A stretch of DNA of 51,946 nucleotides. Origin: Ruminococcus flavefaciens. GTDB lineage: Bacteria; Bacillota; Clostridia; Oscillospirales; Ruminococcaceae. Of the stretch, positions 11,830 through 43,225 are shown one piece after another. Under the pieces are notes generated by a model that was not told the DNA's origin, did no database searches, and saw only the letters and a program-made list of their open reading frames with translations. The DNA lies in contig CACXEJ010000130.1 of NCBI GenBank assembly GCA_902766595.1, positions 1 through 51,946 of the forward strand. The letters are read 5' to 3'. Within the stretch, counting starts at the first letter, position 1; the number at the start of each line of letters is the position of its first letter. The position numbers were made by a program, and so were the translations under genes.

Positions 11830-11853
11830 ATGTATGCCCTCCTTTCAGAATTA

Positions 11854-12555: not shown

Positions 12556-12560
12556 GGCGC

Positions 12561-27361: not shown

Positions 27362-27930
27362 AGCTGTCCCTCCTTTATACCTCTTTCCGCGAGTGCAGCC
27401 CTGAGCTTGTCTGCAGCTCGTTTCACCCTCATTCTTACTGCCGAGGGCTTCATAGAAAGAAGCTCTGCGATCTGGTGTGAACTCTTATCGTAGTAGAACT
27501 TCTGGATAACAATGGTCGAATCCGGTTCTCCGAGAGACTCTATGCAATCCGCCACTATCCTCTGCAATTCCCGCTTGTCATTATCAGCTTCCAGATCATC
27601 GTCAGAACTTACGCCGGAAAACGTTTCGTCGTCCAGCGACAGTGTTCTTCCTGTTTTGCGGGAGAGGCTCCTGAAGCGGTCTATGCCGGTCCTTTTGGCG
27701 ACAGTGCTGATGAAGCCCTTGAGATCACCGCTGACAGGCTCTTTCTCGAGACTGAAAAAGACCTTAGCAAAAATGTCGCTTATACATTCCTCTATGTCCT
27801 CGCGGCTGCCGGCAAGACCAAGACGGTTTGCAGCGATAGCGGCGACGTAGTTGTAGTATTCGTCAAAAAGCAGCTTGTGAGCAGTGCTCCGTGACTTTTT
27901 CAGCTTTGCAGCGAATTCTTCACCTTTCAA
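27358..27930 (-). CDS. ECF-type RNA polymerase sigma factor (RpoE-like)
   Basis: About 190 residues. Sigma region 2 (LLFDEYYNYVAAIAANRLG, then DIEECISDIFAKVFFSLE and FISTVAKRTGIDRFR) and region 4 (RIVADCIESLGEPDSTIVIQKFYYDKSSHQIAELLSM, then KPSAVRMRVKRAADKLRAAL) are both complete. The frame extends to a GTG at 27999 and an ATG at 27987, but a strong GGGAGGGA lies just upstream of the TTG at 27930. I favour that start; the others add only a weakly conserved tail. It is co-expressed with the overlapping membrane protein gene. I found no clear sigma-A promoter upstream, so autoregulation is possible. Confidence 0.9.
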   Translation of the reverse strand: MKGEEFAAKLKKSRSTAHKLLFDEYYNYVAAIAANRLGLAGSREDIEECISDIFAKVFFSLEKEPVSGDLKGFISTVAKRTGIDRFRSLSRKTGRTLSLDDETFSGVSSDDDLEADNDKRELQRIVADCIESLGEPDSTIVIQKFYYDKSSHQIAELLSMKPSAVRMRVKRAADKLRAALAERGIKEGQL

Positions 27931-28091
27931 GGACGATCCCTCCCTTGCGTTGATATTACTGCGTACAGCAGTTGTTTGAGCTTCCATGGCAGCTTTCACT
28001 ATATACAGTCGTACATTTCAGCGCTGCTGTCACTTTTTTTCGTAAAAATTCAATGTTTTTTTAAAGTATATAAATGTTTATAGTTTATCCG

Positions 28092-28270: not shown

Positions 28271-30013
28271 ATGAGAGAGAAAAATGCTCCCGGCAAAAAG
28301 AAGAGTATCATCGAAAGGACTCTGGACAGCCTTTCTGACCGCAATAAAGCCCCTATGGCAGCCTATGTTGTGCTCGCTGTATTGTACATCGTCTGCTCTG
28401 CGATCGTTACCCTTACCGCTGACAACGGTAATGCGCTGAAGATCGGCGGAGGAACTGTTGCGGTATACGCTTTCGCAGGCGTATTTTCTGCGCTTTCCAA
28501 TATTTTCATAATATTCATCGTCCTGTTCTACGGCAAGCTCGGCTTCCGGACGGCGATGGTGTTCCTTTGCGTACAGCTTCCTATGATAATATCCGGCATC
28601 TTTATCCGCGGAAACTACGCGAGCCTTCCCGGACTCGTTACTGATATATTCACTATCATAGCTATCATTATGCTGTACAAGAACAACGAGAGAGTTGACC
28701 GATATCAGCGTAAGCTCCGCGATCAGGCGGTAAACGATATGCTGACAAACCTCCCGAACCGCTTTGCCTGTTCAGAGCTGATAAACGACCTGATAAAGCA
28801 CGGCGAGAAGTTCACAGTCGTTTCGATAGACATCAACAACTTCAAGAGCATCAACGACACTATGGGCTTCAAAGCCGGAAACAGCGTTCTCATCGAGATA
28901 GCTTCAAGGTGGGAAACCATCGCGGACAGCGGTCTTTCGAGCACCCTCGACTTTATCACAAGAGTTGCCGGAGACGAGTTTGCGCTCATTATCCGCAATT
29001 ACCGTTCTGAGGACGACGTCGTGAAAACTATCAGGCAGTACGAGGCTGCACTCGGAAACCGGGTAACTGTTGACGACTGCGACATCTATATCACAGCGAG
29101 CTTCGGCTATGCTGAGTTCCCGACAGACGCGGATAACTTCGACAGCCTGTTCTCGTATTCCAATGCGGCTATGGCTGAGGTCAAGCGTCAGAACAGCAGC
29201 GACCATATCCTGCGCTTTTCGTCTGAGCTCCTTAAAGCCGGACGCACCCTCGAGATCGAGCACAAGATCAGAACTGCCCTCGATGAGGACACTATCTACT
29301 TCCAGCTTCAGCCGCAGTTCGACCTTTCCCACAAGCTCCGCGGCTTTGAGGCGCTTGCGCGTATCAAGGACTCTGAGGGCAACAACATCAGCCCCGGCGA
29401 GTTTATCCCGATAGCTGAAAAGGTCGGTCTTGTCGATAAGATAGACGGAGCTGTTTTCAGAAAATCTGCTGAATTCTTCGGCGAGCTCCTCAGAAAATCG
29501 CCGTCCTCCGATGTTACACTCAGCGTAAACGTCTCCGTAAGACACCTTATGAAGAACGACTTTGTTGAGGAGATACGCAGCATCGTCGAAAACAGCGGTG
29601 TTCCTGCCTCACAGCTTGAGATCGAGATCACCGAGTCGATAATGATAGACTCTGCCGACAAGGCTCTCCAGTGTATCAAGGAGCTCAAGAATATGGGTAT
29701 GAAGATCGCTATCGACGACTTCGGCACAGGCTATTCTTCACTGAGTTACCTCAATAAGTTCCCGGCAAACCTCCTCAAGATAGACAAGTCCTTCATCGAC
29801 AAGATGAACGCCAGCGACTCCTCAAAGAAGTATGTTGCAGCGATCATCTCTATCGGTCACATTATGAATTTCGATGTTATTTCCGAGGGTGTCGAGAAGG
29901 AGGAGCAGCTCGAAACTCTCCGCGAGATAGGCTGCGACTACATACAAGGCTATATCTGGGGACGTCCGCTCCCTACTGAGGACGCTGAAGCGCTCTATCT
30001 GAACGCTGTCTGA
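28271..30013 (+). CDS. Membrane GGDEF-EAL protein (c-di-GMP turnover)
   Basis: 580 residues. Four predicted N-terminal helices (about 30-50, 61-88, 92-113, 120-137) lead into a GGDEF domain (about 150-310) and an EAL domain (about 325-575). The GGDEF signature is AGDEF (233-237); Ala in the first position is often tolerated, so diguanylate cyclase activity is possible. The inhibitory I-site Arg is replaced by Ser (STLD before TRVAGDEF). The EAL domain keeps the metal and catalytic residues: EAL (359-361), SVNVS, EIEITES, IDDFGTGYSSL, LKIDKSF, SEGVEK and DYIQGY. It is probably a phosphodiesterase or bifunctional enzyme at the membrane. AAGGAGG precedes the ATG. It is convergent with another EAL gene. 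Confidence 0.94.
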   Translation: MREKNAPGKKKSIIERTLDSLSDRNKAPMAAYVVLAVLYIVCSAIVTLTADNGNALKIGGGTVAVYAFAGVFSALSNIFIIFIVLFYGKLGFRTAMVFLCVQLPMIISGIFIRGNYASLPGLVTDIFTIIAIIMLYKNNERVDRYQRKLRDQAVNDMLTNLPNRFACSELINDLIKHGEKFTVVSIDINNFKSINDTMGFKAGNSVLIEIASRWETIADSGLSSTLDFITRVAGDEFALIIRNYRSEDDVVKTIRQYEAALGNRVTVDDCDIYITASFGYAEFPTDADNFDSLFSYSNAAMAEVKRQNSSDHILRFSSELLKAGRTLEIEHKIRTALDEDTIYFQLQPQFDLSHKLRGFEALARIKDSEGNNISPGEFIPIAEKVGLVDKIDGAVFRKSAEFFGELLRKSPSSDVTLSVNVSVRHLMKNDFVEEIRSIVENSGVPASQLEIEITESIMIDSADKALQCIKELKNMGMKIAIDDFGTGYSSLSYLNKFPANLLKIDKSFIDKMNASDSSKKYVAAIISIGHIMNFDVISEGVEKEEQLETLREIGCDYIQGYIWGRPLPTEDAEALYLNAV

Positions 30014-30036
30014 TGTTCAGGCTTATCAATGAATAT

Positions 30037-30070
30037 GCAGGGCAAGGTTAATTCCTTGCCCTGCTTTTTT
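30037..30070 (+). terminator. Strong terminator between the two c-di-GMP genes
   Basis: GCAGGGCAAGG (30037-30047) with CCTTGCCCTGC (30054-30064), loop TTAATT, then six T. Confidence 0.95.
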
Positions 30071-30074
30071 GCTC

Positions 30075-33000
30075 TTATTTGTATTCGATAGTTACTGTAT
30101 GCTCGATCTCTTCACCGTTTATGATAACATTCAGTCTGCCGTTTTTGACAGTGAAGTTCTTATCGGAAGCGGAGGTCGCCTTGTTGAGTGCCGACCTGAC
30201 ATCAAGACGGGTATCTGAGTCGGTGAGCTGAATGAAGGTCTCTGCCTCATTGTATCCGCCCAGCGCAAGGGCTTCCTGACCGATAGCATCGAGCTTGAGG
30301 TGAGAGTCGCCGAGGTTGATCTCTGAGGCTCCGTAGAGCGCTCCGAAACAGGTGGAATTGTCCGCCATAATGTTCAGCACGAGACTGACCTGATCGGTCC
30401 GCACAACAGCCTTGCTGCCGCGGAGAGTTCCGAATACGACCATATACTTGTTGTGCGAGTAGAATTTCACCGAGCTCTTGTACAGGGAGATGTCCGCGTT
30501 ATTCTCGAGAGAGCCGATGAAGGTTCCGATGCTTGCAGCGCAGTCGGACTCAATGTGGCAGGTGGTTATCGCAAGCTCAGCTTCACCGGTGATAGCGCCT
30601 ATACCGACAGCTGTTTCGGTGTCGATATTGAGATTGTACTCGCCGCGGTTTATGTGTATCTCGCCGCCTCGTCCGGAGCCTATACATATAGTGCTCTTGC
30701 CGCGGCAGCTTATGGTTAAGAGACCGTCCTGTTCGAAGACCAGCTCGCCATGACGAGAGTGGTGATCGTTGCCGATGCCGTAGGACTCGGCTGCGTTGAG
30801 CTCGATGTTGAGAGCGCCGTCGCCTTCTATCACGAGCCTTGCTGACTCAGGGACCTGTATTCCGGCTTCAAACAGAGTGTTCGTGCCGACGAGAACGAGC
30901 GTGACGTTTGAATTCTCACCGAGCTCGATAGCAGGGCGGTTCTTGACGTTTGTGAAGTAAACGTCCTCGAGCGTGATGCGTCCCCTGTAACCGGGCTCGA
31001 CGCGCATATGCAGACCTGTTTTCATCTGCGGAGTTCCGATTATGGATATGTCCTTGTAGACCATTTCGTCGTGTCCGATGACTATGTCCGTACAGCCCTT
31101 CTTTTCGAGCTTTGCAAGCGGAACGCGGTTGGTCTTGCCGGCGATGTAGATGTGCTTGTTGTCGCCGTCGATGCGCTCCTGATGAAACTGCTTTATCTGA
31201 CTGCGACACTTTTCGTCTATCTGACGGATAACGTCAGCGGAAGGCTTTGCCGTGTAGAAACCCTGAATGAGGTCAGCGCCGAGGTGTATGACGGTCTGGA
31301 GCTCCTCCGCCGTCTCGACGCCCTCCGCAAGAGCCTTGATGCCGTTGTCATGGCAGAAATCTATGATCTCGCGGACGAAGTGCTGCTTCTGGGGGTATTC
31401 GTGGATATCGCTGAGGAGGGAGCGGTCTATCTTGACGAAATCCGGCATATAACGCAGGAGATTGCTCACGTTGGAGTAGCCCGTTCCGTAGTCGTCAACA
31501 GCGATGTTGATGTGCATTTTTTCAAAGTAGTCCTTCAGCTTTGTAAGCTCGGAGTCCTTCAGCTCGGCTTCCTCAGTGAGCTCAACGACCACTCTTTCAG
31601 CGTGGGCGGCAAGGTAATTGTCCAGCTCGTAGGCTGACTCTTCGCCGACGCTGACTCCGGGTATGCTGTTGATAAAGACTCTCGCCTCACCGAAGCGTTC
31701 CTCGTTCTGGTCGATATAGCTGAGAACGTTCAGGAAGGTAGCACGTTCAACATCGGAGAGACGTTCCTGCATAGCGGCGTACTTTATGATCGAGAGCGGC
31801 GATATCTTGTCCTTTGTGCGTGAGCGCATAAGGGCTTCATAGGCGTAAACACTGCCGTCAACGGCACTTACGATCGGCTGGAAATAGTAGTCGAGGAGGT
31901 TGTCGTCGAGTATCTTTGAAACGAGCTGATACTGGTTCTTTTCGGACGTATCAAGTGACTCATAGGCGTGGCTCGTCACCGTGAACTTGCTACTGCGGAA
32001 ATGCTCGAGCTGTTCCTGCATATGCATCATCTCGAGACTGCGTCTGAGCACCTCGAGCCCCGTGCTGACCGAGCTTATCCAGCGGCGGTAAATATCGTCG
32101 TAGCTGCGCAGCTTGCTGCCGTAGCTGACTGCGGCATATCCGAAGCAGTTGTTCTCAAAGAATACCGGCGTGAAGAAGTAGGCGGTCGGGAAGTTGCTGT
32201 CGTCGTAGAGCTCCGGCAGCATATCTGCTGTATCGAAAAGCTCGTCTGTGCCGGCGATATTGCTCCGGCGGTCGCTGCAATAGCGTATCGCGTGTATCAT
32301 CTTCTTCGGGTAGCCGGAATTTTTAATGTGAGCGACCTGACCGCTGTTCTTCCATTCGCCTGCGAGGCAGAGGTGGAATTCCTCCGCACCGCGTATCTGA
32401 TAGGCGTAGGAGTAGACTGTGTCGAGGTAATCCTGAAGCGAGGTCTGCGAGATAAGGCTTTCTTTCATCGTGCTGAATACGGAATCGTAGCCCTCTTCGG
32501 AAATATCCGTGCCCCAGTGCTGGCGTTTTATGTGGTGGACGGGCATAGTTCCGGTTTTACAGCCGCAGCTCTCACCGATGAGGAGCTTGGATCTCAGCCT
32601 GAATGATTCCGGAACTTTTCCGTTTATTTTGTCTGAGAGAAATCTGAATGTATACTCGCCGAATTCCTCGGCAGGTATGAGTGCGGACGTTATAGAGCAC
32701 GGGCTCGTCTGTCCCTCAAATGTCGAATCATAGCCGATAACGGCGATATCCTCCGGCACCTTTATGCCGCGTTCTTCAAAAGCCCGGCAGAGTCCTATCG
32801 CCATCTGGTCGTTTGCACAGGCAACGGCGTCCGGCAGCTTCTTTCCGTCCGCGAGGAGTTCCTCAGCGCACAGCTCACCGCTCTGATACCAGAAATCACC
32901 GTAGATTATGCGTTCCTCGGACACCGGCAGCCCTGCCTTAGCCATAGCGTCACGGTAAGCCTGAAGCCGCTCCTTGGAGTGCTTGTGCCACTTCTTGCCT

Positions 33001-33422
33001 GATAGAAAGGCGATGTCGCGGCAGCCGTGGACTTCGATGAGGTGGGTGACGAGTTCAAAGACGTCGGAGTAGCAGTCGGTGCAGATACTGGGGAAGAGGT
33101 CGCTCTCCTTTTCAATGACCACAATGGGCTTGTCGAAGATGTCCTTGAGGCGGAGCTCGAGCTTTTCAGCCGCATCTTTGGTCTGTATGCTGTCCTTGAG
33201 GATTATCGCGCCGTCAAATTTATCCGGTGCCATAAGACTGAAAATATTGGACTCGCCCTGTTCGCGCTCCGGAGTATCCTGATATTTACGGTACATTGAG
33301 AATATACATACATCATATCCGCCGGCAAAGGCATTTTTCAGAAAGCCGCTGATGAAACGGCTCTGGTAGGACTCATCAGCCTGTCCGACAAATAGAGCTA
33401 TTCGCTTTCTATGATCCTTCAT
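30075..33422 (-). CDS. Cytosolic LacI-type sensor / GAF-like / EAL / beta-helix fusion protein
   Basis: 1115 residues without signal peptide or membrane helix. Residues about 5-285 form a LacI/PBP1-type sugar-binding domain (RIALFVGQAD, FDGAIILKD, HGCRDIAFLSG, AVACANDQMAIGLCRAFEERG, VPEDIAVIGYD) but with no LacI DNA-binding helix, ending in a Cys motif GESCGC. Residues about 300-465 resemble a GAF-like region (YFFTPVFFENNCFGYAAVSYG). Residues about 500-740 are an EAL domain with all catalytic positions: YEALMR, FINS, ELTEEAE, VDDYGTGYSN, VKIDRS, EGVET, DLIQGFY. Residues about 755-1115 form a repetitive beta-helix-like domain (IGSGRGGEIHINRGEYNL and similar) like those of extracellular carbohydrate-binding proteins. 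I infer a c-di-GMP phosphodiesterase gated by an intracellular sugar. Own promoter; paralogous sensor at 37851-40034. Confidence 0.9.
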   Translation of the reverse strand: MKDHRKRIALFVGQADESYQSRFISGFLKNAFAGGYDVCIFSMYRKYQDTPEREQGESNIFSLMAPDKFDGAIILKDSIQTKDAAEKLELRLKDIFDKPIVVIEKESDLFPSICTDCYSDVFELVTHLIEVHGCRDIAFLSGKKWHKHSKERLQAYRDAMAKAGLPVSEERIIYGDFWYQSGELCAEELLADGKKLPDAVACANDQMAIGLCRAFEERGIKVPEDIAVIGYDSTFEGQTSPCSITSALIPAEEFGEYTFRFLSDKINGKVPESFRLRSKLLIGESCGCKTGTMPVHHIKRQHWGTDISEEGYDSVFSTMKESLISQTSLQDYLDTVYSYAYQIRGAEEFHLCLAGEWKNSGQVAHIKNSGYPKKMIHAIRYCSDRRSNIAGTDELFDTADMLPELYDDSNFPTAYFFTPVFFENNCFGYAAVSYGSKLRSYDDIYRRWISSVSTGLEVLRRSLEMMHMQEQLEHFRSSKFTVTSHAYESLDTSEKNQYQLVSKILDDNLLDYYFQPIVSAVDGSVYAYEALMRSRTKDKISPLSIIKYAAMQERLSDVERATFLNVLSYIDQNEERFGEARVFINSIPGVSVGEESAYELDNYLAAHAERVVVELTEEAELKDSELTKLKDYFEKMHINIAVDDYGTGYSNVSNLLRYMPDFVKIDRSLLSDIHEYPQKQHFVREIIDFCHDNGIKALAEGVETAEELQTVIHLGADLIQGFYTAKPSADVIRQIDEKCRSQIKQFHQERIDGDNKHIYIAGKTNRVPLAKLEKKGCTDIVIGHDEMVYKDISIIGTPQMKTGLHMRVEPGYRGRITLEDVYFTNVKNRPAIELGENSNVTLVLVGTNTLFEAGIQVPESARLVIEGDGALNIELNAAESYGIGNDHHSRHGELVFEQDGLLTISCRGKSTICIGSGRGGEIHINRGEYNLNIDTETAVGIGAITGEAELAITTCHIESDCAASIGTFIGSLENNADISLYKSSVKFYSHNKYMVVFGTLRGSKAVVRTDQVSLVLNIMADNSTCFGALYGASEINLGDSHLKLDAIGQEALALGGYNEAETFIQLTDSDTRLDVRSALNKATSASDKNFTVKNGRLNVIINGEEIEHTVTIEYK

Positions 33423-33498
33423 TGTATCCCTTCCTTTGAACGGGTAATAAATTCGATTCTTGAAATGCTGCTGGTGTGATCACAATTAACCATAATAT

Positions 33499-33527
33499 AT
33501 TATATCATAAGTGTACATATATTTCAA
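33499..33527 (-). promoter_or_regulatory. Promoter of the LacI-EAL fusion gene
   Basis: Minus-strand TTGAAA (33522-33527), 17 bases, TATAAT (33499-33504) with an extended TGA. Confidence 0.8.
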
Positions 33528-33717
33528 GTAAAACTATTGTATATGTTAAAACGATAAACCTTTCGTGACTGCCAAAATGGCAGGTAATGGAAATGCTGAA
33601 TAAAGAAGTATATGCGCATTTACCGTGGCAAGCCTTTATGAGGAAAGGTTTCGCCAACAGCGCCGTTCCCCCTTTTCAAAAACTTTATTTTCGTTTTTGC
33701 CGTGATAGTACAAATTT

Positions 33718-33748
33718 AGCGCTACTAATTTTAGTAGCGCTTTGTTTC
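33718..33748 (+). terminator. Orphan terminator-like hairpin
   Basis: Perfect 10-bp stem AGCGCTACTA (33718-33727) with TAGTAGCGCT (33732-33741), loop ATTT, followed by TTGTTTCTT. No upstream plus-strand gene is recognised. Confidence 0.6.
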
Positions 33749-33908
33749 TTGAAACAGTGTACTGTCACAGTAAAAAACAGATAAGGTATTAGGAAGAGAG
33801 TTTGAGAGCGACTCCCCACAGTGTGGGAAATTGTCCGCAAAACAGAAGGGACGCGCTGCCGTCAGCGGAACCCTTTTTTCAAAAGGGTTTCCTCAACAAT
33901 CCGTATGT

Positions 33909-33945
33909 TACTTCTATATTGGTATCGCCTTTAAGATGCAGCAGC
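33909..33945 (-). repeat. 3'-end repeat, copy B (after the YfhO gene)
   Basis: Starts TACTTCTATATTG and ends with the ATGCAGCAGCT type motif, matching copy A at 20361-20398 with scattered substitutions. It directly abuts the stop codon of the YfhO gene. Confidence 0.6.
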
Positions 33946-36624
33946 TCACTTCACGAACAGAGACAGGATATTTCCTAATATCGGAGCTGCACAGAGGATA
34001 ATAAGTGCTCCGATCGAAACTGCATAGAAGCAGACATAGGCAAAACCGTTGAACGCCTTGACTCCGCATATATCCATTCCCTTTTTTCTGAGCAGCATAA
34101 CAACCGCGAACAGAATGAGTCCGGCTATGCTTATTACCACGCTTATCCAGAAGCTGTACGGTACAAATCTCATCTTTATCTCTGCGTCCTCACTGCCGAG
34201 CTTTATAGCCGTGAACGCTCCTCCGAGCACCGGGGTGATCTCCGTCTTGGTGCCGTTTACCTCAGCACGCCAGTTCTTGTTATACTCTATCGGCAGGAAT
34301 ACATATCTGTCCTGCGGATCATCGACCTTCAGCGAAAGCTTATAGCCGCCGGCTTCAACATCGTAAGCGTGGGGAGCTTCCGAAGCAGACTTGCAAAGCT
34401 TATCGAGCTTTTCGAGATCCATAACACCGATGAGCAGTTTGTCAGTACGCTTGTTCTTGGAGTTTACAGAAATACTCACCTTCTCGCCGCTGAATATTCC
34501 AAGGAATGCACAGCCGGTGAGGTTAGAGCGCGGATAAACATTATCATCTTCATTTTCATAGGGAAGGCTCGCCGGTTCTCCGTTGACATTCAGGGCGAAA
34601 ATATCGCTCTTTGAAGAGGTATAGATATACACTGCCGACTCCTTGTCAACGTTGAATTCACCGGAGTAACGGTAGGGCATAAACATATTGCCGTTCATCT
34701 CGTTATCATCGGCGGTAACTATGTCCATATAAGTGAATGTGGTGAACAGATCCTCGCTGTCGCCGGAAAGTGCCTTGTAAATACGGTTCTGATAGCTGAA
34801 CGGACTTTCGTGAGTACGGCTGTCGAGTTCAGTCAGCTCATCACCGGCAAGAATTCCAAACGGGAGAGTATAATTACAGTCATAGATATGGAAGTATTTT
34901 GAGTCCTTTGAAAAGGTATAGAGGCTGTTAGCGCTCTCAATGTGCGAATAGACCTTCTTAACGTTGAGAAGAGCGTCAGAAAAAGCCGTTCCGCCGGTAT
35001 CCATCGTGTAGGTGTAGTTCGAGTCATAACCCAGAGCTCTCATTTCTTCAAGATAGTTCTTGGATATATTGAGAGTCCAGTCGCTGATGCCGGGAACTCC
35101 TGACAAAAGGGGCAGATTGACATTTGTATCCATCATATTGAGCATCTTGAAACGCGACAGCTTTCTGTCCTCCATATCAGCGGACTGCCGTATATCCTTG
35201 GCAGTATAGGACAGCGAGAGAGAACCCTCAGCATCAGGAGCCACAAGAGCATAGCTGCCCAGAAGTGCCTGAACGGCAGCGATCGAAACGAGGAGCACTG
35301 TCCGGAACTTCTTCTCGCAGAACCCGAATAATATGAAGCATGAAGCCGTTGACGCTATGAAAATATATTTATGGAGAACGTAAGTCTCTTTGTCCTCAAT
35401 GCCGGTGTCCTTCATCTGTATAGCCATTACAGTTATTATTATAGCCGAAGTAGCTGCTGTAATTAGAGACGCATATTCAAGCACACTTTTCAGCTTCTTC
35501 TTTTCGACTTTGAAGAGAGGCTTTTCACCTCTGAGACTTGCAAAATATGCCGCGATGTCGCAGCAGACGAAAGCAAGTATGAAGCCGAAGCGATACGGGA
35601 AATGAACATACGAGCCGCCGTGCCAGAGAAGATTTGAGCCCTCACAGAATACCGGTATCATCAGCACAACAAGCAGATAAACGAAGAATATGCTCTGCTT
35701 ATCGAGCTTTTTGCCGTCCTTTTTGCTGCGTATGATATGTGCAAGAAGGGCAGCTATTCCGGCTTCGCAGCCAAAGAGCATAAAACGTTTCTGGTAATCA
35801 AAATCGCCGGTTCTCGTAAACAGTATCTCATCGAACGTTTTGTTATATCCCGCTCTTGGAGAGTCCAGAAGCTTCAGCGTACCCGGTATCATCATATAAG
35901 CTGCAATAATGTATGACAACAGCGTGAAGATACCGAGCTGAGCGGCTGCTCTGCGGCACTTTGCCCTGTCCTCCGATATAAAGAACATATGCCCGAAAGA
36001 GTAGAATATCACGAATACATAGACCATAAAGCTGAGGTAACCGTTCAGTATGAAGCAGAGCAGAGTCATAACGGTATAGCCAAGGAATTTTCCCTCGTTC
36101 AGCAGCGCCTTCAGTGCGAGCATCAGCAGCGGGAAAAGTATCATAATGTCCATAAAGAAGATGTTCATATAGTTCTGGACCATAAAGCCGCAGTAGGTAT
36201 AGAACAGCGAAAACGCGACATTCATAACTGCACCGCAGCGGTAGGTCTTTTTCATATAGACCGACATCGTCAGTGCTGAGAGCATCAGCTTCAGCGCGAG
36301 GAAAATGCCCATAAACTGGAACAGATCATCTCGTTTCACGAAGAACAGAAAAACGTTCATCGGATTGAGTCCGTATGTCGTATAGTTTGAAAGGCAGTCG
36401 CAGGAAGCACCGTTGTACCAGTCGAAGAAGAGCGGTGCCTTGCCGTGGAGGAATTCGTGAGCGTGGGTGTATTCAGGAATATACTGAGGTCCCATATCGT
36501 AAAAGGCTATACTGCCGTTTCCGAAAGGGTAAACTCCCTTCAGCATATAGACTATGAATAGTATTGCGAGTGCCGCAAGCGGAGCTATGAGGTACTCTTT
36601 ATTGCGTTTGATACGATCCATCAT
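33946..36624 (-). CDS. YfhO-family polytopic membrane protein
   Basis: 892 residues with about 13 hydrophobic segments, mostly in the first 470 residues, then a large extracytoplasmic region (about 490-840) and a last pair of helices. The N-terminal pattern (GVYPFGNGSIAFYDMGPQYIPEY, then FFDWYNGAS and NPMNVFLFF) is typical of the YfhO family. These are GT-C-like proteins linked in Bacillus to lipid-carrier-dependent glycosylation of wall polymers. Here it follows a WecE-type aminosugar gene by 61 bases, supporting a role in moving or attaching a modified sugar at the cell surface. AAGGAG precedes two tandem ATGs (36624, 36621); either may be used. Confidence 0.88.
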   Translation of the reverse strand: MMDRIKRNKEYLIAPLAALAILFIVYMLKGVYPFGNGSIAFYDMGPQYIPEYTHAHEFLHGKAPLFFDWYNGASCDCLSNYTTYGLNPMNVFLFFVKRDDLFQFMGIFLALKLMLSALTMSVYMKKTYRCGAVMNVAFSLFYTYCGFMVQNYMNIFFMDIMILFPLLMLALKALLNEGKFLGYTVMTLLCFILNGYLSFMVYVFVIFYSFGHMFFISEDRAKCRRAAAQLGIFTLLSYIIAAYMMIPGTLKLLDSPRAGYNKTFDEILFTRTGDFDYQKRFMLFGCEAGIAALLAHIIRSKKDGKKLDKQSIFFVYLLVVLMIPVFCEGSNLLWHGGSYVHFPYRFGFILAFVCCDIAAYFASLRGEKPLFKVEKKKLKSVLEYASLITAATSAIIITVMAIQMKDTGIEDKETYVLHKYIFIASTASCFILFGFCEKKFRTVLLVSIAAVQALLGSYALVAPDAEGSLSLSYTAKDIRQSADMEDRKLSRFKMLNMMDTNVNLPLLSGVPGISDWTLNISKNYLEEMRALGYDSNYTYTMDTGGTAFSDALLNVKKVYSHIESANSLYTFSKDSKYFHIYDCNYTLPFGILAGDELTELDSRTHESPFSYQNRIYKALSGDSEDLFTTFTYMDIVTADDNEMNGNMFMPYRYSGEFNVDKESAVYIYTSSKSDIFALNVNGEPASLPYENEDDNVYPRSNLTGCAFLGIFSGEKVSISVNSKNKRTDKLLIGVMDLEKLDKLCKSASEAPHAYDVEAGGYKLSLKVDDPQDRYVFLPIEYNKNWRAEVNGTKTEITPVLGGAFTAIKLGSEDAEIKMRFVPYSFWISVVISIAGLILFAVVMLLRKKGMDICGVKAFNGFAYVCFYAVSIGALIILCAAPILGNILSLFVK

Positions 36625-36685
36625 TATCTCCTTAACAAAGGGTAATATTAATCAGGCTGTCAGCCCGGAAGCAGCTGCTTTCAGG

Positions 36686-37816
36686 TCAGCAGCCGAAAAA
36701 TGCAAGCGCTATCTCGATGACCTTTGCCCTGTCCTCTGGCGTGAGACCGAAGTACATCGGTAGCCTTACAAGACGGTCGCTCTCGCGGGTAGTATACTCG
36801 TCTATGCCGTTGAAGCGTCCGTACTTTCTTCCGGCAGGAGCTGAATGGAGCGGTACATAGTGGAATACCGCACATACGCCGTTATTCTTCATATGGTCGA
36901 TGAAGCGTGTGCGCTCTTCGAGGTCGCGGAGCTTTATGTAGAAGCAGTGAGCGTTGTGGACGCAGTAATCCGGCACCTTCTGGAGCTCGATGATCCCCTG
37001 CTCCTCAAGCGGCTTGAACGCTTTGAGGTAGTCGTTGTAGGTGGTCATACGGTCATTGTAGATCTCGTCTGCGTGCATAAGCTGGGCATAGAGATAAGCG
37101 GCATTTATGTCGCTCGCAAGATAGCTGTCTCCGATGTCCACCCAAGTATACTTATCCACCTCTCCGCGGAAGAACTTCGAGCGGTTCGTACCCTTTTCGC
37201 GGAGTATCTCAGCGCGTTCCATATAGGCGTCATTGTTGACGAGGATAGCGCCTCCCTCACCCATCGAGTAGTTTTTGGTCTCGTGGAATGAATAGCAGCC
37301 GAAATCGCCGATCGTTCCGAGAGAACGTCCCTTGTAGCTGCTCATAACGCCCTGAGCTGCGTCCTCTATGACGAGGAGATTATAGCGGCGGGCAATATCC
37401 ATTATCGTGTCCATCTCACAGGCAACTCCTGCGTAGTGAACGGCTACGATAGCGCGTGTATGCTTGGTTATGGCAGCCTCTATCTTGTTCTCATCGAGGT
37501 TCATAGTATCGGGGCGTATATCCGAAAATACGAGCGAAGCGCCGCCGAGTATCATAGAGGTAGCAGTGCTCGAAAACGTAAAGCTGGGGAGTATTACCTC
37601 GTCACCGGGCTTGAAGCCGCTGAGTATCGAGGACATATCGAGCGCACTGGTACAGCTCGTCGTGAGGAGGAGCTTCTGCGCGCCGAAGCGCTTTTCGAGC
37701 CACTCGGTACAGAGCTTGGTGAATTTTCCGTCGCCGGAGATCTTGTGTGAGAATACCGACTGCTTTATGTATTCGAGTTCATCGCCTGTAAAGGGCGGAA
37801 TATTGAATGGTATCAT
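36686..37816 (-). CDS. wecE: dTDP-4-amino-4,6-dideoxygalactose transaminase (WecE/RffA-like)
   Basis: 376-residue PLP aminotransferase of the DegT/DnrJ/EryC1 family. It probably converts dTDP-4-keto-6-deoxyglucose to dTDP-4-amino-4,6-dideoxygalactose with glutamate. WecE-like features: the start MIPFNIPPFTGDELEYI, SCTSALDMSSIL, PSFTFSSTA, EDAAQG and the PLP Lys in SFHETKNYSMGEGGA (K181). No other dTDP-sugar genes are in the window, so its partner enzymes lie elsewhere. AAGGAG precedes the ATG. It sits between the AraC-type sensor (34 bases upstream) and YfhO, probably one operon, suggesting that a sugar signal adjusts a surface glycan. Confidence 0.9.
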   Translation of the reverse strand: MIPFNIPPFTGDELEYIKQSVFSHKISGDGKFTKLCTEWLEKRFGAQKLLLTTSCTSALDMSSILSGFKPGDEVILPSFTFSSTATSMILGGASLVFSDIRPDTMNLDENKIEAAITKHTRAIVAVHYAGVACEMDTIMDIARRYNLLVIEDAAQGVMSSYKGRSLGTIGDFGCYSFHETKNYSMGEGGAILVNNDAYMERAEILREKGTNRSKFFRGEVDKYTWVDIGDSYLASDINAAYLYAQLMHADEIYNDRMTTYNDYLKAFKPLEEQGIIELQKVPDYCVHNAHCFYIKLRDLEERTRFIDHMKNNGVCAVFHYVPLHSAPAGRKYGRFNGIDEYTTRESDRLVRLPMYFGLTPEDRAKVIEIALAFFGC

Positions 37817-37850
37817 AATAAACTCCTTTATATATGTGTATGCTGCCGCG

Positions 37851-40034
37851 TCAGCTCTTCAGCAGGCTCCGGTAGCGTACCGGAGTCATACCGACAGCGG
37901 AATTGAACTGGCGCAGGAAGTATTTGCTGTCGAGGTAGCCGCATTTTTCGGATATTTCCATAATGCTCATCGTGCTTGTGACGAGCTGGTACTTAGCCTT
38001 TGCAATTCGGGCATTTATGCAGTCCTTATGGAAGCTCAGCCCGAAGCACTGCTTGTAGACGCTGCGGAAATAGCCTGTGCTTCCGGAAAAGCGTTCGTGG
38101 AGCGAAGGCGTGTCGAAGGTGGAGGCAGGCTCCATAAAGATGTAGTCGCGCATCTCGGACATCTCGCGGTAGTGGTTGAGAAGGCGCTTTGCAGACAGGT
38201 CGAGCATCAGTTTTTCAGCCTTATCGCTGCATCTGCCGAGCACCTCGCGGTATGTGCCGTCACCGCACTTTTCAGCGGTACACACAAATGAGCCCGCACC
38301 GAAGCTCTCCATATACTTCCTGTGCTGGAGAAGTATGGAGACAAGCGAATCTGCAAGGAGCTCCGGCTCTGCACTGCTCTGAACGAGGCAGACAAAGGTA
38401 TTCGGGTTTATCATTGCGGAAATATCGTGGTTGCCGCAGAATTTTCCGACAGCCTTTGAAGCGTCGAGAACGGCATTTATACGGGTATCGCTCTCTATCT
38501 CGGAGACTGTCTCATCGAACAGGCATATTTTCAGCATAACGAGGCAGAGCTCCTTGCCGCTTCGCGGAGAAGCCGAACGGTAAGCCTTTTCCATACCGTT
38601 GTCATTGTACATACCGGTGAGGGTATCGCGCTGCGAGGAGAGGTTCTGGCACTTGCTGAGGTACTGTATATCGTTTTTCATACGCAGCAGCTCGAGACCG
38701 TTGCAGACGGTCTTGTTCCAGTTGCGGAAGATGTCGTCGTAGGTATCGGGAACGTCGTAGCGTATGACGGTCGAGCCGAAATATTTCTCGCCGAAAAACA
38801 GGGGCGTGAAGTAATAGACGGAGGGCTCGTCAAACTTTGCCGGCAGCACCGAGAATTCCATACGGCTCATCTCGAAGGTATCACCTGTCTCCTGACCAGC
38901 TATATCCCGGCAGACCATATTGTCCGAGTTGTGCATCTCGGAGTCGTACCAGTCTGCATTGAGACATATAAAAATGTCCTTGGCGTCCCTGATGAGCCAT
39001 TGCTGCCTGCCGAGAGCCTGAGCGAATTCATCGAGATTGCGGCTGTTTGTGAGGTCCTTGTCGAGCGGACTGAAGAGGTTCCAGTCCTGAAAATCACTCC
39101 TCAGCTTCTGCGCATCGAGCTCGCTGATGTACTGCTCGCGGCAGCGTCCGCAGGGACAGCTGTCTCCGGGTACGAGAGAACCTCCGGGCGGGCTGAAATC
39201 CCCGAAATTGCCGGTAGTGAGCTTGTCGTGGAGCATACGCACGGCAGCTTTTCCGAGGGCTGAACGGCTTCGGCGGTAGGTAGTGAGAAGAGGGGTATAG
39301 AGAATTCTGCGGTCGATGTACTCATAGCCGGTGACGATGATCTGACCGGGCACCGAGATATCATTGCGCGCAAACTCGTCGAGCATACCGTAAGCCATAT
39401 AGTCGTTGCCGCATACGACAGCCTGCGGCATATGCAGCTCGCCGCTGATGTACTTCTTTGCGAGTTCCTGACCGGAAATCATCCAGAAGTCGCCGAAATG
39501 TATCTTGCTCTCGTCAACCGGGATATTGTGCTGGCGGAGAGCCTGCCTGTAGCCGTCAGCTCTGAGGTGCGAGACCTCGATATGGTCCTGTCCTGTGAGC
39601 ATATCAATGTCTGTGCAGCCGTGGACATCGATGAGGTGCGAGGTAATATCGACAAAATCGTTTTTGTCGTTGGTATTGATGAAGCGGGCTCCGGGCAGGT
39701 CGAAAATTTTCTGGTAGGTGCCCACAACAATGATCGGTACTCTCTTTTTCTGACTGAGGAGGTCAGCGATCCTGCGCTTGAGAGCATCGTTGACGAAGGA
39801 TTCGGCGATGAGTATCACCGCACTTATATCGTCTGAGAGGATATATTCGTAGATATGGTTTTCACACAGGAGTTCTTCATAGAGAACATTCGGGTTGAAA
39901 ACATTTGAAAACACGGCGGTGTCGTAGCCTAACTGCTGTGCCTGTCCGATAATCCCCTCGAGTATCTGTCTCTGTTCGATACTGTTGGCTTCCGCAGCCA
40001 TAACACCAAGTATCGGTCGGACTGGTCTTAACAT
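37851..40034 (-). CDS. LacI-type sensor / GAF-like / degenerate GGDEF / AraC transcription factor
   Basis: 727 residues, cytosolic. About 8-290 is a LacI/PBP1-type domain without its own DNA-binding helix (RPILGVMAAEAN, HGCTDIDMLTGQDHIEVSHLRADGY, AVVCGNDYMAYGMLDEFARN, VPGQIIVTGYE), ending in GDSCPCGRC. About 310-475 repeats the GAF-like region of the EAL fusion (YYFTPLFFGEKYFGSTVIRYD, then YDDIFRNWNKTVCNGLELLR). About 480-610 starts like a GGDEF domain (RDTLTGMYNDNGMEKAY), but the signature site is replaced (INPNTFVCLV), so no cyclase activity is expected. About 625-727 is an AraC helix-turn-helix (IMEISEKCGYLDSKYFLRQFNSAVGMTPVRYR). It is divergent from the GH30-CE1 gene and upstream of wecE and yfhO, the likely targets. 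Confidence 0.9.
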   Translation of the reverse strand: MLRPVRPILGVMAAEANSIEQRQILEGIIGQAQQLGYDTAVFSNVFNPNVLYEELLCENHIYEYILSDDISAVILIAESFVNDALKRRIADLLSQKKRVPIIVVGTYQKIFDLPGARFINTNDKNDFVDITSHLIDVHGCTDIDMLTGQDHIEVSHLRADGYRQALRQHNIPVDESKIHFGDFWMISGQELAKKYISGELHMPQAVVCGNDYMAYGMLDEFARNDISVPGQIIVTGYEYIDRRILYTPLLTTYRRSRSALGKAAVRMLHDKLTTGNFGDFSPPGGSLVPGDSCPCGRCREQYISELDAQKLRSDFQDWNLFSPLDKDLTNSRNLDEFAQALGRQQWLIRDAKDIFICLNADWYDSEMHNSDNMVCRDIAGQETGDTFEMSRMEFSVLPAKFDEPSVYYFTPLFFGEKYFGSTVIRYDVPDTYDDIFRNWNKTVCNGLELLRMKNDIQYLSKCQNLSSQRDTLTGMYNDNGMEKAYRSASPRSGKELCLVMLKICLFDETVSEIESDTRINAVLDASKAVGKFCGNHDISAMINPNTFVCLVQSSAEPELLADSLVSILLQHRKYMESFGAGSFVCTAEKCGDGTYREVLGRCSDKAEKLMLDLSAKRLLNHYREMSEMRDYIFMEPASTFDTPSLHERFSGSTGYFRSVYKQCFGLSFHKDCINARIAKAKYQLVTSTMSIMEISEKCGYLDSKYFLRQFNSAVGMTPVRYRSLLKS

Positions 40035-40079
40035 TATTTACGCCTCCGTAAATTTATTTGGATCAGAATATCTATTATA

Positions 40080-40108
40080 ATTATAGAATAAAATTCCACA
40101 TATGTCAA
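40080..40108 (-). promoter_or_regulatory. Promoter of the LacI-AraC sensor gene
   Basis: Minus-strand TTGACA (40103-40108), 17 bases, TATAAT (40080-40085). GGAGG lies 9 bases before the ATG at 40034. Confidence 0.85.
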
Positions 40109-40161
40109 CAGAAACAAGCATATTTTTCTTTTATTTGTCCACCTGATATTCACATTGTGGG

Positions 40162-40190
40162 TTTACAAGTGGCAAATATTAATATATAAT
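40162..40190 (+). promoter_or_regulatory. Promoter of the GH30-CE1 gene
   Basis: TTTACA (40162-40167), 17 bases, TATAAT (40185-40190). The two divergent -35 boxes are about 54 bases apart, room for one shared AraC-type binding site. Confidence 0.8.
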
Positions 40191-40288
40191 GAACAAGGAT
40201 AAAAGTGTACTCTGGTCAATTTTGGGCTAAGTACAGTCGTTATCATTAAAAAAGCACAAAACAAATAACATAAGGGGGTAATCCTACA

Positions 40289-43225
40289 ATGAAGATCACA
40301 CACAAGATCAGATCTGCATTCGCTGGTATTGTTGCAGGTGCAATGATGTTCTCAGTTGCTTCCGCAATGCCGGCTGTCTCTCCTGAAGAGAGTTTCGACG
40401 CAAATGCTGCCGGTGCCTGTACTATCAACACCAGTAAGCTATATCAGTCTATTGACGGCTTCGGCGGTATCAATCACCCCGAGTGGTACGGCGACCTCAC
40501 TGATGCTGACCGAAAGATCGCTTTCGGAAACGGTAACGGAGAACTCGGCTGTTCTATCCTTCGTATCTTCGTAAATCCCGATAAGAGCCAGTGGAGCAAA
40601 GCTCTTCCGACTGCTCAGTATGCTACCAAGAACGGCATCACGGTATTTGCATCGCCGTGGGAGCCGCCGTCGAACCTCGCTGAAAACGGCTCTGCTTACG
40701 GCGGTAAGCTCCACCTCCCGAAGAAGAATTACGGCGCTTATGCTGAGCACCTTAACGACTTCGGTAAATATATGAAGAACAACGGCGTTGACCTTTACAG
40801 CGTTTCAGTTCAGAATGAGCCCGACTACGCTAAGGAGTGGACAGCATGGACGCCGGACGAGACTACCGACTTCATCGCTAACTACGGCGATAAGATCACG
40901 AGCACAAGGCTTATGTCGCCTGAGTCATTCCAGTACGGTGCATGGGGCAACGGCAAGGACTACTACACAAAGATCCTCAACAACGCAAAGGCTTATGCAA
41001 ACTGTGACTTGTTCGGAACTCACTTCTACGGAACTCCCAGAAGCAAGATGGACTTCCCCGCTCTCGAAAACTGCGGCAAGAAGCTCTGGATGACTGAGGT
41101 CTATGTTCCGGACAGCAGCGTTGATGCTAATAAGTGGCCCGATAACCTCGAACAGGCTGTCAATATCCACGATGCACTCGTTGTCGGAGGTATGCAGGCT
41201 TACGTTGTATGGCCTCTCCGCCGTAATTACAGCATCATCTATGAGTCAACACACTCCATTTCAAAGCGCGGATACATCTTCGGTCAGTTCTCCAAGTACA
41301 TCCGTCCCGGCGACTACCGCATCGACGCAACTGAACAGCCTAACACAAATATACTCGTTTCCGCTTACAAGCACAGTGATACCCAGATCGAGGTAGTTGC
41401 CATAAACAAGGGCACGAGCGAGGTAACACAGCAGTTCAACGTAAGCAGCAGAAATATCAAGAATGTTGACCGTTACAGAACATCAGGCAGCGAGAACCTC
41501 GCAGCTACTAAGGGTATGGAAGCAAACGGTTCGTCATTCTACTCACAGCTCCCAGCACAGAGTGTTTCCACATACATCATCACCCTTGAGAGCGACGGAG
41601 CAGAAGTCCCCACATCAGGTGAGGATCCCACATACGAGCCTCCTACGACACCCGGTCCTATCGAGCCCGACGCTAACGGCTACTACTTCCACGATACATT
41701 CGAGGGAAGCAATTGTGACTGGGAAGGCAGAGGTTCTGCAACAGTTACACTCAGCGGCAGACAGCCCTATGCAGACAAGGAAGCTCTCCTCGTTCAGGAC
41801 AGAGCTGCAACGTGGAACGGTGCTCAGAAGGTACTCGATGAAAACACCTTCAAGGCTGGCGAGTCTTACAGCTTCAGCGTGAACGCGACTTACCTCGACG
41901 GTTCAGCAGCTTCTACCAAGATGATGCTCTCGCTCCAGTATAAGGACTCAGAAGGCACTACCTGCTACGGACATATCGCTGAAGGAACTACGGTTGCCGG
42001 AAAGTATGTCCAGCTCGCAAATACCAGCTACAAGATACCCGACGGCGCTACCGACCTAATTCTCTACGTTGAGACAGCAGAGGGCTCAACTACCGACAAC
42101 TTCTACATCGACGAAGCTATCGTTGCTGTTAAGGGCACAAAAATAGACGGTCCTGCCGAAACAAAGTTCGCTTACGGCGATGTGACATTCGACGGCAAGA
42201 TCAACGTTTTCGACGTTATTGCTGCAAGACGCGGTCTCACAAACGGCTTCACAGACTCCGCTGCAGAGCGCGCTGCCGACGTTGACCAGAGCGGCAAGGT
42301 CGAGATCGCTGACGTAGTTCAGATCTCCAATTTCGTGCTCGGCAGAATTACAAAGTTTGAAGTTACTGCTCCTCCCAAGTCTGAGTATGTATACAACTCC
42401 GCAGTTTCCTTCAAGGCTGCTCCGGATAAGTACTTCGAGGCTATCAGCAGCGACAAGGCTGGCAAGATAGTTCAGGAAAACTACACAGGTATCAACGGTG
42501 CAAAGACAATGTACGTTTACCTCCCCAACGGCTACGACTCAAGCAAGAAGTACAACGTATTCTACCTTATGCACGGCGGCGGAGAGAACGAGAAGACCTG
42601 CTTCTACGACAACTCCACCCACATCGGCAATATGCTCGACCATATGATCGCTAACGGCGAGCTCGAACCTATGATCGTTGTTACACCTACTTTCAACAAC
42701 TGCCCGAACGTTGACGGCAACGGCGGTGCTGCAACAGTATGGGACGAGATGCGCAAAACTATCATCCCCTACATCGAGGGCAAGTATTCAACATACGCAG
42801 CTTCGACCTCTGAGGCTGACCTCAAGGCTTCAAGATATCACCGTGCATACGGCGGCTTCTCAATGGGCGGCGGTTCCACATGGAATATGATGATAAACAA
42901 CCTCGATGTCTGCGCATACTATATGCCTCTCTCAGGTCACTGCTGGGCAGGCGCAACAGGTATCCAGAACGCTATCGACAAGTTTGGTCTCAAGCCCAAT
43001 GAGTACTTCGTATTCGCAGCAACAGGCGACAAGGACATTGCATATGGCAACCTCTCAGGTCTCTGCAATTCCCTCAAGGCTGATACACAGCGCTTCAAGT
43101 ACACTTCTGACTTCTCCAAGGGCAACTTCTACTACCTCGTTGCTTCCGGAAAAGACCACTACTGGGGCAATGTAAGACACTACATCTACGATGCACTTCC
43201 CTCATTCTTCCACGAGGGACAGTAA
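40289..43225 (+). CDS. Cellulosomal xylan-degrading enzyme: GH30-CBM22-dockerin-CE1
   Basis: 978-residue secreted multidomain enzyme. A signal peptide (AGIVAGAMMFSVASA) is followed by a GH30 domain (about 45-435) with acid/base Glu in VQNEP (E177) and nucleophile Glu in WMTEVYV (E270). A Pro/Thr-rich linker (about 440-465) and a CBM22-like beta-sandwich (about 466-615) come next. A type I dockerin (about 626-688) has two Ca-binding repeats (YGDVTFDGKINVFDVIAARR and VDQSGKVEIADVVQISNFVLGR). The C-terminal CE1/feruloyl-esterase-type domain (about 695-978) has nucleophile Ser in GGFSMGGG (S858) and a catalytic His in GKDHYWG (H957). It probably cuts xylan and removes its ester groups while docked on a cellulosome. 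AGGGGG precedes the ATG. Confidence 0.94.
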   Translation: MKITHKIRSAFAGIVAGAMMFSVASAMPAVSPEESFDANAAGACTINTSKLYQSIDGFGGINHPEWYGDLTDADRKIAFGNGNGELGCSILRIFVNPDKSQWSKALPTAQYATKNGITVFASPWEPPSNLAENGSAYGGKLHLPKKNYGAYAEHLNDFGKYMKNNGVDLYSVSVQNEPDYAKEWTAWTPDETTDFIANYGDKITSTRLMSPESFQYGAWGNGKDYYTKILNNAKAYANCDLFGTHFYGTPRSKMDFPALENCGKKLWMTEVYVPDSSVDANKWPDNLEQAVNIHDALVVGGMQAYVVWPLRRNYSIIYESTHSISKRGYIFGQFSKYIRPGDYRIDATEQPNTNILVSAYKHSDTQIEVVAINKGTSEVTQQFNVSSRNIKNVDRYRTSGSENLAATKGMEANGSSFYSQLPAQSVSTYIITLESDGAEVPTSGEDPTYEPPTTPGPIEPDANGYYFHDTFEGSNCDWEGRGSATVTLSGRQPYADKEALLVQDRAATWNGAQKVLDENTFKAGESYSFSVNATYLDGSAASTKMMLSLQYKDSEGTTCYGHIAEGTTVAGKYVQLANTSYKIPDGATDLILYVETAEGSTTDNFYIDEAIVAVKGTKIDGPAETKFAYGDVTFDGKINVFDVIAARRGLTNGFTDSAAERAADVDQSGKVEIADVVQISNFVLGRITKFEVTAPPKSEYVYNSAVSFKAAPDKYFEAISSDKAGKIVQENYTGINGAKTMYVYLPNGYDSSKKYNVFYLMHGGGENEKTCFYDNSTHIGNMLDHMIANGELEPMIVVTPTFNNCPNVDGNGGAATVWDEMRKTIIPYIEGKYSTYAASTSEADLKASRYHRAYGGFSMGGGSTWNMMINNLDVCAYYMPLSGHCWAGATGIQNAIDKFGLKPNEYFVFAATGDKDIAYGNLSGLCNSLKADTQRFKYTSDFSKGNFYYLVASGKDHYWGNVRHYIYDALPSFFHEGQ

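Follow-up and report, generated by a model that had tools for sequence, protein, structure and literature searches.

Results

Genes at the locus and the architecture of PBP-AraC

We analysed a 51,946-nucleotide stretch of Ruminococcus flavefaciens DNA, hereafter the window, which is contig CACXEJ010000130.1 (our C130) of an assembly of 2.47 Mb in 145 contigs that is 82% complete. Our subject is the segment from 28271 to 43225 and, within it, the gene for a regulator, PBP-AraC (37851..40034, minus strand; 727 amino acids), the xylanase gene that diverges from it (40289..43225, plus strand), and an operator-like site between the two (40134..40163, minus strand). The segment further holds genes for a GGDEF-EAL protein, a second sensor protein (PBP-EAL), YfhO and WecE. 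A first-pass annotation had called these six genes, all of which we confirmed, and had read them as one 15-kb module that splits a single sugar signal into a cyclic di-GMP (c-di-GMP) branch and a transcriptional branch acting on surface glycan and cellulosome enzymes. From the sequence we consider it likely instead that the stretch consists of two adjoining regulatory units: (i) a PBP-AraC activator of xylanase genes; and (ii) a c-di-GMP unit around PBP-EAL.

The divergent enzyme is a GH30 glucuronoxylanase-type protein with CBM_4_9, dockerin and esterase domains in Pfam and a signal peptide by eye; it scored 456.9 bits against the XynC model NF052681, under the cut-off of 650. PBP-AraC matches Peripla_BP_3, HTH_18 and HTH_AraC in Pfam and can be divided into four parts, all on the minus strand: (i) a LacI-like sugar-binding sensor, approximately residues 1-295 (39150..40034; Peripla_BP_3); (ii) a middle domain, approximately residues 296-465 (38640..39149), common by hhalign to three sensor types; (iii) a degenerate GGDEF domain, approximately residues 466-632 (38139..38639); and (iv) an AraC-type DNA-binding domain, approximately residues 640-727 (37854..38117; PF12833 at 648-722, and PF00165). 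The PDB sequence matches of the sensor are RbsR, PurR and CcpA; Pfam matched no helix-turn-helix (HTH) in it, and no signal peptide was seen by eye. The N-terminal HTH expected of a LacI-family repressor was matched in neither window sensor, so that of the "LacI-GAF-AraC" label in the first-pass annotation the LacI-like domain and the AraC HTH stand, and the LacI HTH does not.

The sequence does not support the GAF part of that label either. Pfam gave no GAF match in either window protein, and among 32 scanned homologues GAF_2 was touched weakly by 3, with a best E of 0.049. The predicted model of PBP-EAL has, at the supposed GAF position, a small alpha/beta domain whose last element is a long helix, and a GAF-like fold for the middle domain is possible on the strength of this model. 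The segment that precedes the AraC HTH, which the annotation had not named, is a GGDEF domain without its motif (hhalign probability 99.4, E 2e-21, against 0.1-0.7 for five unrelated pairs). None of 87 AraC-type proteins carries GG[DE]EF at the expected place, so the domain lacks the signature of a diguanylate cyclase. Pfam itself reports GGDEF at E <= 1 in 24 of the 32 scanned homologues; since 7 of the scanned proteins are true GGDEF proteins, at least 17 of 25 AraC-type proteins show the match.

In the stretches we fetched, one kind of front half, consisting of binding domain, SCxC linker and middle domain, is joined to GGDEF, EAL or AraC outputs, and the proposal of one sensor with different outputs therefore holds at the level of the family. 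In profile comparisons of 87 AraC-type, 11 GGDEF-type and 33 EAL-type proteins, the middle domain of the AraC type proved homologous to that of the GGDEF type (hhalign 99.8) and of the EAL type (99.9). The SCxC motif, which the annotation had noted in both window sensors, is not peculiar to them but a hallmark of the family: [ST]CxC stands at the expected place in 84/87 AraC-type, 30/33 EAL-type and 11/11 GGDEF-type sensors. The window sensors do share a homologous front half, but they are only about 27% identical and fall in different parts of a 62-row tree, and thus are old relatives and not recent twins; a recent-paralogue origin was rejected on the tree. In that tree, which has long branches and an unsure deep order, 29 AraC-type sensors lie on one side of a branch with weak support (88/42), and 15 PBP-EAL sensors form a separate group (support 100/100) beside the GGDEF-type sensors. 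Several PBP-GGDEF proteins, read individually, have GGDEF or GGDEM as their motif. At L166:7066-10809 a sensor, an altered GGDEF domain, an EAL domain and a solenoid are fused in one 1247-amino-acid protein. In the family members with an AraC output, a diguanylate cyclase scaffold seems to have been turned into a transcription factor.

Pairing of PBP-AraC with xylanase genes

The divergent xylanase, which the first-pass annotation had pointed out, turned out to be one of a conserved pair. Of 125 genus genomes, 69 contain a match to PBP-AraC at E <= 1e-140, a count that includes paralogues. We sampled 58 AraC-type genes in 56 fetched regions and recorded their upstream neighbours: 36 were complete divergent genes of at least 150 amino acids, 13 lay on the same strand, and 9 genes had none. 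Among the 36 divergent neighbours, Pfam found dockerin in 21, CBM_4_9 in 12, CBM6 in 11, GH30C in 8, GH5 and GH43 in 7 each, GH98 in 4 and GH10 in 3. Most of the dockerin-bearing neighbours also have domains related to xylan. A local dockerin hidden Markov model (HMM) matched 22 of the 36, compared with 1 of 60 control open reading frames (ORFs), a sample from 250 that are three or more genes distant; the 25 families listed by Pfam for the controls do not include dockerin. Two observations count against the pairing: sigma factor models match 3 of the 36 divergent neighbours, and some AraC orthologues adjoin short divergent genes. At L109, L110 and L111, PBP-AraC orthologues are divergent to ORFs of 168-200 amino acids, with no xylanase; the sigma-factor-like neighbours are probably those of these three loci.

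An operator-like site and its promoter geometry

The site at 40134-40163 reads AACCCACA-N12-GGTGGACAAA, with its AACCCACA end toward the xylanase and its GGTGGACAAA end toward araC. A comparison of the regions upstream of 31 araC genes showed GTAAACCCACAATGTG...GGTGGACAAA to be kept while much of the surroundings changes. The site at 40134-40163 is the sole match to the pattern in the window at up to 3 mismatches, where 0.00 were expected.

A promoter-like site of the xylanase, TTTACA-17-TATAAT (40162..40190, plus strand; 11/12 consensus matches), begins its -35 box with the last two bases of the operator-like site, so that two bases are shared and the -10 box is free. Beyond the enzyme-side end of the site, TATAAT with at most one mismatch follows at 20-22 bp in 46 of 47 listed sites (46 of them distinct, and many rows of the site and geometry lists being orthologous copies). 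The same hexamer was found at 211 of 9,400 random positions (2.2%) and in 583 of 7,520 windows near the same sites (7.8%). Where TATAAT is exact, the offset is 21 in 29 rows, 20 in 4 and 22 in 5. AraC-type activators usually sit at the -35 box, touching RNA polymerase, and the distance of 20-22 bp therefore corresponds to the geometry of an activator that abuts this box.

On the other side, the araC promoter-like site, TTGACA-17-TATAAT (40080..40108, minus strand), matches the consensus at 12/12 positions, the only such score between 28000 and 43500. A script placed the araC -35 box 25, 35-36 or 45-46 bp from the operator-like site in 24 of 31 upstream regions. These spacings are whole helical turns (vector length 0.99 at 10.5 bp), and they are not independent because the genomes are related. 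The script found no site-plus-promoter in the other seven regions (L227, L228, L241, L244, L245, L246 and L050), of which L241 does have the site.

Recurrence of the site in related genomes

We counted the site at up to 3 mismatches in three sets of genomes, using the reversed pattern as control; the genomes counted include those from which the pattern was derived. The 18 genomes with an orthologue of 55-100% identity hold 131 matches versus 11 reversed; these genomes were mostly picked because the site had been seen upstream of their araC genes, and each therefore has at least one match by construction. The 18 genomes with an orthologue of 48-60% hold 93 versus 16. In 20 genomes without a match at E 1e-140 there are 43 versus 14. 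Mean sites per genome thus run 7.3, 5.2 and 2.15, and the first two groups differ from the third by Mann-Whitney tests (p 1.4e-6 and 7.9e-5, respectively).

Across the family, the best site of a locus falls inside the 440-bp upstream region of araC in 17 of 58 cases, where 1.72 were expected. With at most 4 mismatches, a site occurs in the araC upstream region of 17 of 58 loci versus 0 for the reversed pattern, and all 17 have one orientation; these 17 loci are partly a different set from the best-site 17, and 4 are of the same genus. Thirty loci were cut out around their sites. In 16 the site was the one upstream of araC, in 10 it stood before another secreted-looking gene, in 3 it lay on the 3' side of araC and in 1 inside an ORF. 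The ten non-araC targets carry, in Pfam, GH10 (five), GH141 (two), GH30 (one) and CBM_4_9 alone (one, cut by a contig end); the tenth has no Pfam family and is GH30-like by eye. The called start lies 76-83 bp beyond the site in eight of the ten and is uncertain in two. At L399, L403 and L407 (genomes G456, G396 and G483), where the operator-like site is 3' of araC, TATAAT stands 20 bp beyond it.

The WecE-YfhO genes and the position of PBP-EAL

Downstream of araC on the minus strand follow the genes for a WecE transaminase (36686..37816; TIGR02379, score 614.6 against a curated cut-off of 434.85), 34 bp after araC, and for a YfhO membrane protein (33946..36624; PF09586), 61 bp after WecE. WecE is possibly co-transcribed with araC. 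A check of neighbourhood conservation in relatives, which the first-pass annotation had proposed, came out divided: in the two nearest relatives, G499 and G448 (loci L298 and L204), the block GH30-AraC-WecE-YfhO is kept, but PBP-EAL is not beside it. The four proteins are 86, 86, 96 and 72% identical in G499, the nearest relative, where what follows the block is not PBP-EAL but a homologue of the gene at 20403 in the window; in G448 the identities are 59, 63, 88 and 48%. WecE and YfhO are separated by about 700 bp in both, versus 61 bp in the window, and PBP-EAL is on another contig than the block in both. In G426, PBP-EAL and an AraC match are on one contig, approximately 1.2 Mb apart.

Of 60 genus genomes sampled, 4 have a WecE match (E <= 1e-60), for which reason the surface-glycan part looks local, and 22 have a YfhO match (E <= 1e-40), with a YfhO of 48% in G448 only; G499, which has both, is outside the 60-genome sample. 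We rejected a conserved surface-glycan role on these counts.

The PBP-EAL and c-di-GMP unit

PBP-EAL (30075..33422, minus strand; 1115 amino acids; Pfam Peripla_BP and EAL) belongs to the second, separate unit. The label "LacI-EAL fusion" suits its LacI-like binding domain, which Pfam matches as Peripla_BP, but not a LacI HTH, for which no match was found. The sensor spans approximately residues 1-295 (32538..33422). The EAL domain (31203..31916; PF00563) has intact catalytic motifs, and across 33 aligned proteins the seven motifs, whose roles in EAL catalysis are known, are kept or conservatively changed. Residues 741-1115 (30078..31202) form a C-terminal beta-solenoid, which folded alone with a mean pLDDT (predicted local distance difference test) of 92.4. 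Besides the PBP and EAL families, no Pfam family matched at E 0.001 in 15 homologues, and a Foldseek search of the solenoid against the PDB gave 0 matches at E <= 0.001, its weak best rows being mainly parallel beta-helix enzymes. Our guess is that the solenoid is a docking or glycan-binding surface. The EAL-plus-solenoid pair occurs in relatives also in shorter sensor-less proteins and in proteins with other front ends. The model of whole PBP-EAL (mean pLDDT 87.4, predicted TM-score 0.64) comprises the binding domain, the middle domain with its long helix, the EAL domain and the beta-solenoid; because only LacI-type and EAL structures were among the 50 matches listed, a fold search with this full model is uninformative on the middle domain.

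The PBP-EAL gene has a promoter-like site, TTGAAA-17-TATAAT (33499..33527, minus strand; 11/12 consensus). It is convergent with the GGDEF-EAL gene (28271..30013, plus strand), which has its own promoter-like site, and the sequence between the two can form a terminator-like hairpin (30037..30064). The GGDEF-EAL protein has membrane segments by eye and reads AGDEF instead of GGDEF, yet its EAL, DDFG and EGVE motifs are present.

PBP-EAL occurs in one piece (at least 930 residues) in 25 of 125 genus genomes, of which one has an internal stop and another runs off the end of its contig. In named genomes, a scan gave 375 related coding stretches, of which 80 were kept, from R. flavefaciens, R. albus, other Ruminococcus, Lachnospiraceae and others. 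We counted GGDEF and dockerin genes around PBP-EAL with home-made HMMs, the GGDEF HMM being strict and missing some GGDEF-EAL neighbours. A GGDEF gene adjoins PBP-EAL in 20 of 79 loci; by distance, GGDEF genes make up 20/145 adjacent genes, 5/132 at distance two, 4/121 at three and 4/503 further away. Of the adjacent ones, 15-16 of 20 are on the strand of PBP-EAL (16 same and 4 opposite in our list). At six loci (L281, L291, L292, L293, L294 and L297) a PBP-GGDEF gene directly follows PBP-EAL on the same strand; such pairs are apparently operons in which phosphodiesterase and cyclase share one type of sensor. The cyclase genes found directly beside PBP-EAL often encode a sensor of this type. 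In G380 (L207), a relative of the window GGDEF-EAL protein (64% over 437 residues) directly follows PBP-EAL, and R. flavefaciens MC2020 (L312) has the same arrangement. The corresponding counts for dockerin genes, diluted by the many loci from Lachnospiraceae, are 1/145, 7/132, 3/121 and 10/503, and so point to no clear link; a clear link of PBP-EAL to dockerin genes was rejected, with 1/145 directly adjacent. An unnamed, intracellular beta-solenoid on an EAL partner is found in many rumen bacteria.

Other features of the window

The source genome has Peripla_BP_3 matches at nine places, eight of them above cut-off, and 13 EAL domains. An Rfam scan of the window returned no family at threshold. 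At 26417-27999 (minus strand), a gene for a Sigma-70-type extracytoplasmic function (ECF) factor is followed by one whose product has a threonine-rich stretch and is perhaps the partner of this factor. At 5310-13841 (minus strand) are genes for a 1892-amino-acid protein with SpaA and DUF7601 domains and for a 426-amino-acid protein with DUF7601, which is suggestive of a surface adhesin or pilus locus.

Discussion

In our proposal, PBP-AraC acts in the cytosol as a one-component activator whose LacI-like domain would bind a xylan-derived sugar. The signal would travel via the middle domain and then the GGDEF domain, catalytically dead and probably serving as a dimerising linker, before reaching the AraC HTH. 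From conservation of the site, this HTH is predicted to bind AACCCACA-N12-GGTGGACAAA; there the protein would abut the GH30 -35 box and, judging by the geometry, recruit RNA polymerase. Because the same kind of site stands before GH10, GH141 and other GH30 genes in relatives, the whole looks like a xylanase regulon, and since the araC-facing end of the site lies whole helical turns from the araC promoter, autoregulation of araC is suggested. The araC transcript may also carry WecE and perhaps YfhO. PBP-EAL, for its part, would be a cytosolic c-di-GMP phosphodiesterase, probably gated by a sugar. We think it unlikely that the dead GGDEF domain of PBP-AraC still binds c-di-GMP (or GTP), so that the activator would read both a sugar and the c-di-GMP level; if it did read the level set by PBP-GGDEF and PBP-EAL proteins, the two branches of the first-pass annotation would meet inside one family of transcription factors derived from a diguanylate cyclase scaffold.

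Several of the results above weigh against the assignment of the site to PBP-AraC and against its role as an activator site: the 43 sites in genomes without a close AraC match, the derivation of the pattern from counted genomes, the choice of the first 18, the orthologous copies and kinship behind the lists and spacings, the seven upstream regions missed by the script, and the four sites 3' of araC or inside an ORF. To these we add that, at <=6 mismatches, the site is missing upstream of araC in 26 of the 58 loci sampled across the family, and that four genomes (G450, G498, G474 and G406) have orthologues of 58-60% yet only 2-5 sites. One alternative assigns the motif to a different regulator, such as a general one for xylose or carbon, which would control araC as well, while PBP-AraC would bind elsewhere. 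The sites in genomes without a close match and the 26 siteless regions favour it, and the 43 sites are explained under our reading only if distant paralogues share the specificity; in G019 a 37% paralogue does have a site. The number of sites nevertheless drops with AraC similarity, the above exceptions aside, and the araC-upstream sites keep their single orientation across genera (17/17 with <=4 mismatches), which makes control by another regulator improbable. Nor do we expect PBP-AraC to be a repressor that, free of sugar, blocks both promoters from the site and is released by sugar in the manner of LacI-type regulators. The LacI-like sensor fits such a role, as does a site that touches the xylanase -35 box and lies near the araC promoter. 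The DNA-binding domain, however, is of the AraC type, the site covers two -35 bases only and leaves the -10 free at a fixed distance of 20-22 bp, and xylanase -35 boxes are imperfect (TTTACA in the window), so that repression is a poor fit and an unlikely one.

The single integrated module has more in its favour than proximity in the window. In it, one sugar signal would be split into a c-di-GMP branch (PBP-EAL and GGDEF-EAL) and a PBP-AraC branch that jointly set xylanase and surface glycan. The sensors are homologous, dockerin genes reach 7/132 at distance two from PBP-EAL, and GH30-like or CBM-bearing genes occur near PBP-EAL at several loci. Two loci speak against separate units, the first being the strongest case: G408 (L281/L305) has PBP-EAL, PBP-GGDEF, GH30 and a 43% AraC paralogue within 14 kb, and G415 (L287) has a 43% AraC paralogue about 8 kb from PBP-EAL. 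Yet PBP-EAL is away from the block in the two nearest relatives, the units elsewhere are on different contigs or 1.2 Mb apart, dockerin genes directly beside PBP-EAL number 1/145, and the two sensors belong to separate clades. The operator-like site, moreover, is absent at up to 3 mismatches from the PBP-EAL promoters both in the window and in the 100 PBP-EAL loci scanned, not all of which extend as far as the promoter. We accordingly regard one integrated module as very unlikely, and retain two adjoining units.

A limited literature search (including PMC3672088, PMC4300822, PMC3818352 and PMC3572039) turned up no description of a ruminococcal xylanase or cellulosome regulator-operator pair and, on the sensor and c-di-GMP side, no title on the present system. 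The regulator family, the site with its distances to the promoters, and the predicted targets make control of rumen fibre-degrading enzymes directly testable.

PBP-AraC is best read as a XylR-like activator of xylanases that would respond to a xylan sugar. XylR of Escherichia coli (PDB 4fe4, 4fe7) combines a LacI-like sugar-binding domain and an AraC-type DNA-binding domain in one cytosolic protein and activates xylose genes; XylR-type activators bind D-xylose, and activate their targets. PBP-AraC likewise has a LacI-like domain without the LacI HTH and a C-terminal AraC-type HTH. The sequence match to 4fe4 covers the AraC domain only (residues 658-723), and Pfam PBP1_XylR was touched weakly by 2 of 32 homologues (best E 0.028). 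The two differ in build: in XylR-type proteins the sensor is joined directly to the HTH in approximately 390 amino acids (392 residues in chain 4fe4), whereas PBP-AraC, with 727, places a middle and a dead GGDEF domain between them. They differ also in the sensor, which in PBP-AraC matches RbsR, PurR and CcpA by sequence, and in their neighbours and predicted targets, which are secreted xylanases and not genes of xylose metabolism.

For the second unit, the nearest parallel is in a review in which a periplasmic-binding-like domain is named among the putative sensors of c-di-GMP signalling proteins and may bind sugars (PMC8846402). In the part of that article available to us, neither an AraC-output branch with a dead GGDEF domain, nor a beta-solenoid tail on EAL, nor a pairing with cyclase genes was found; PBP-EAL resembles its proteins as a Periplas_BP-bearing c-di-GMP enzyme. 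On the side of the target genes, the parallel is XydS/XydR of Clostridium cellulolyticum, where, according to the portion of the paper seen, XydR is an AraC-type response regulator that has a partner kinase and turns on hemicellulases bearing dockerins together with CBM6 or CBM22 modules; common repeats lie upstream of two of its targets, and a consensus site for such activators is not given there (PMC3572039). As far as that portion goes, XydR acts on similar genes by a two-component route (PMC3572039), whereas PBP-AraC would do so with sensing and DNA binding in one protein.

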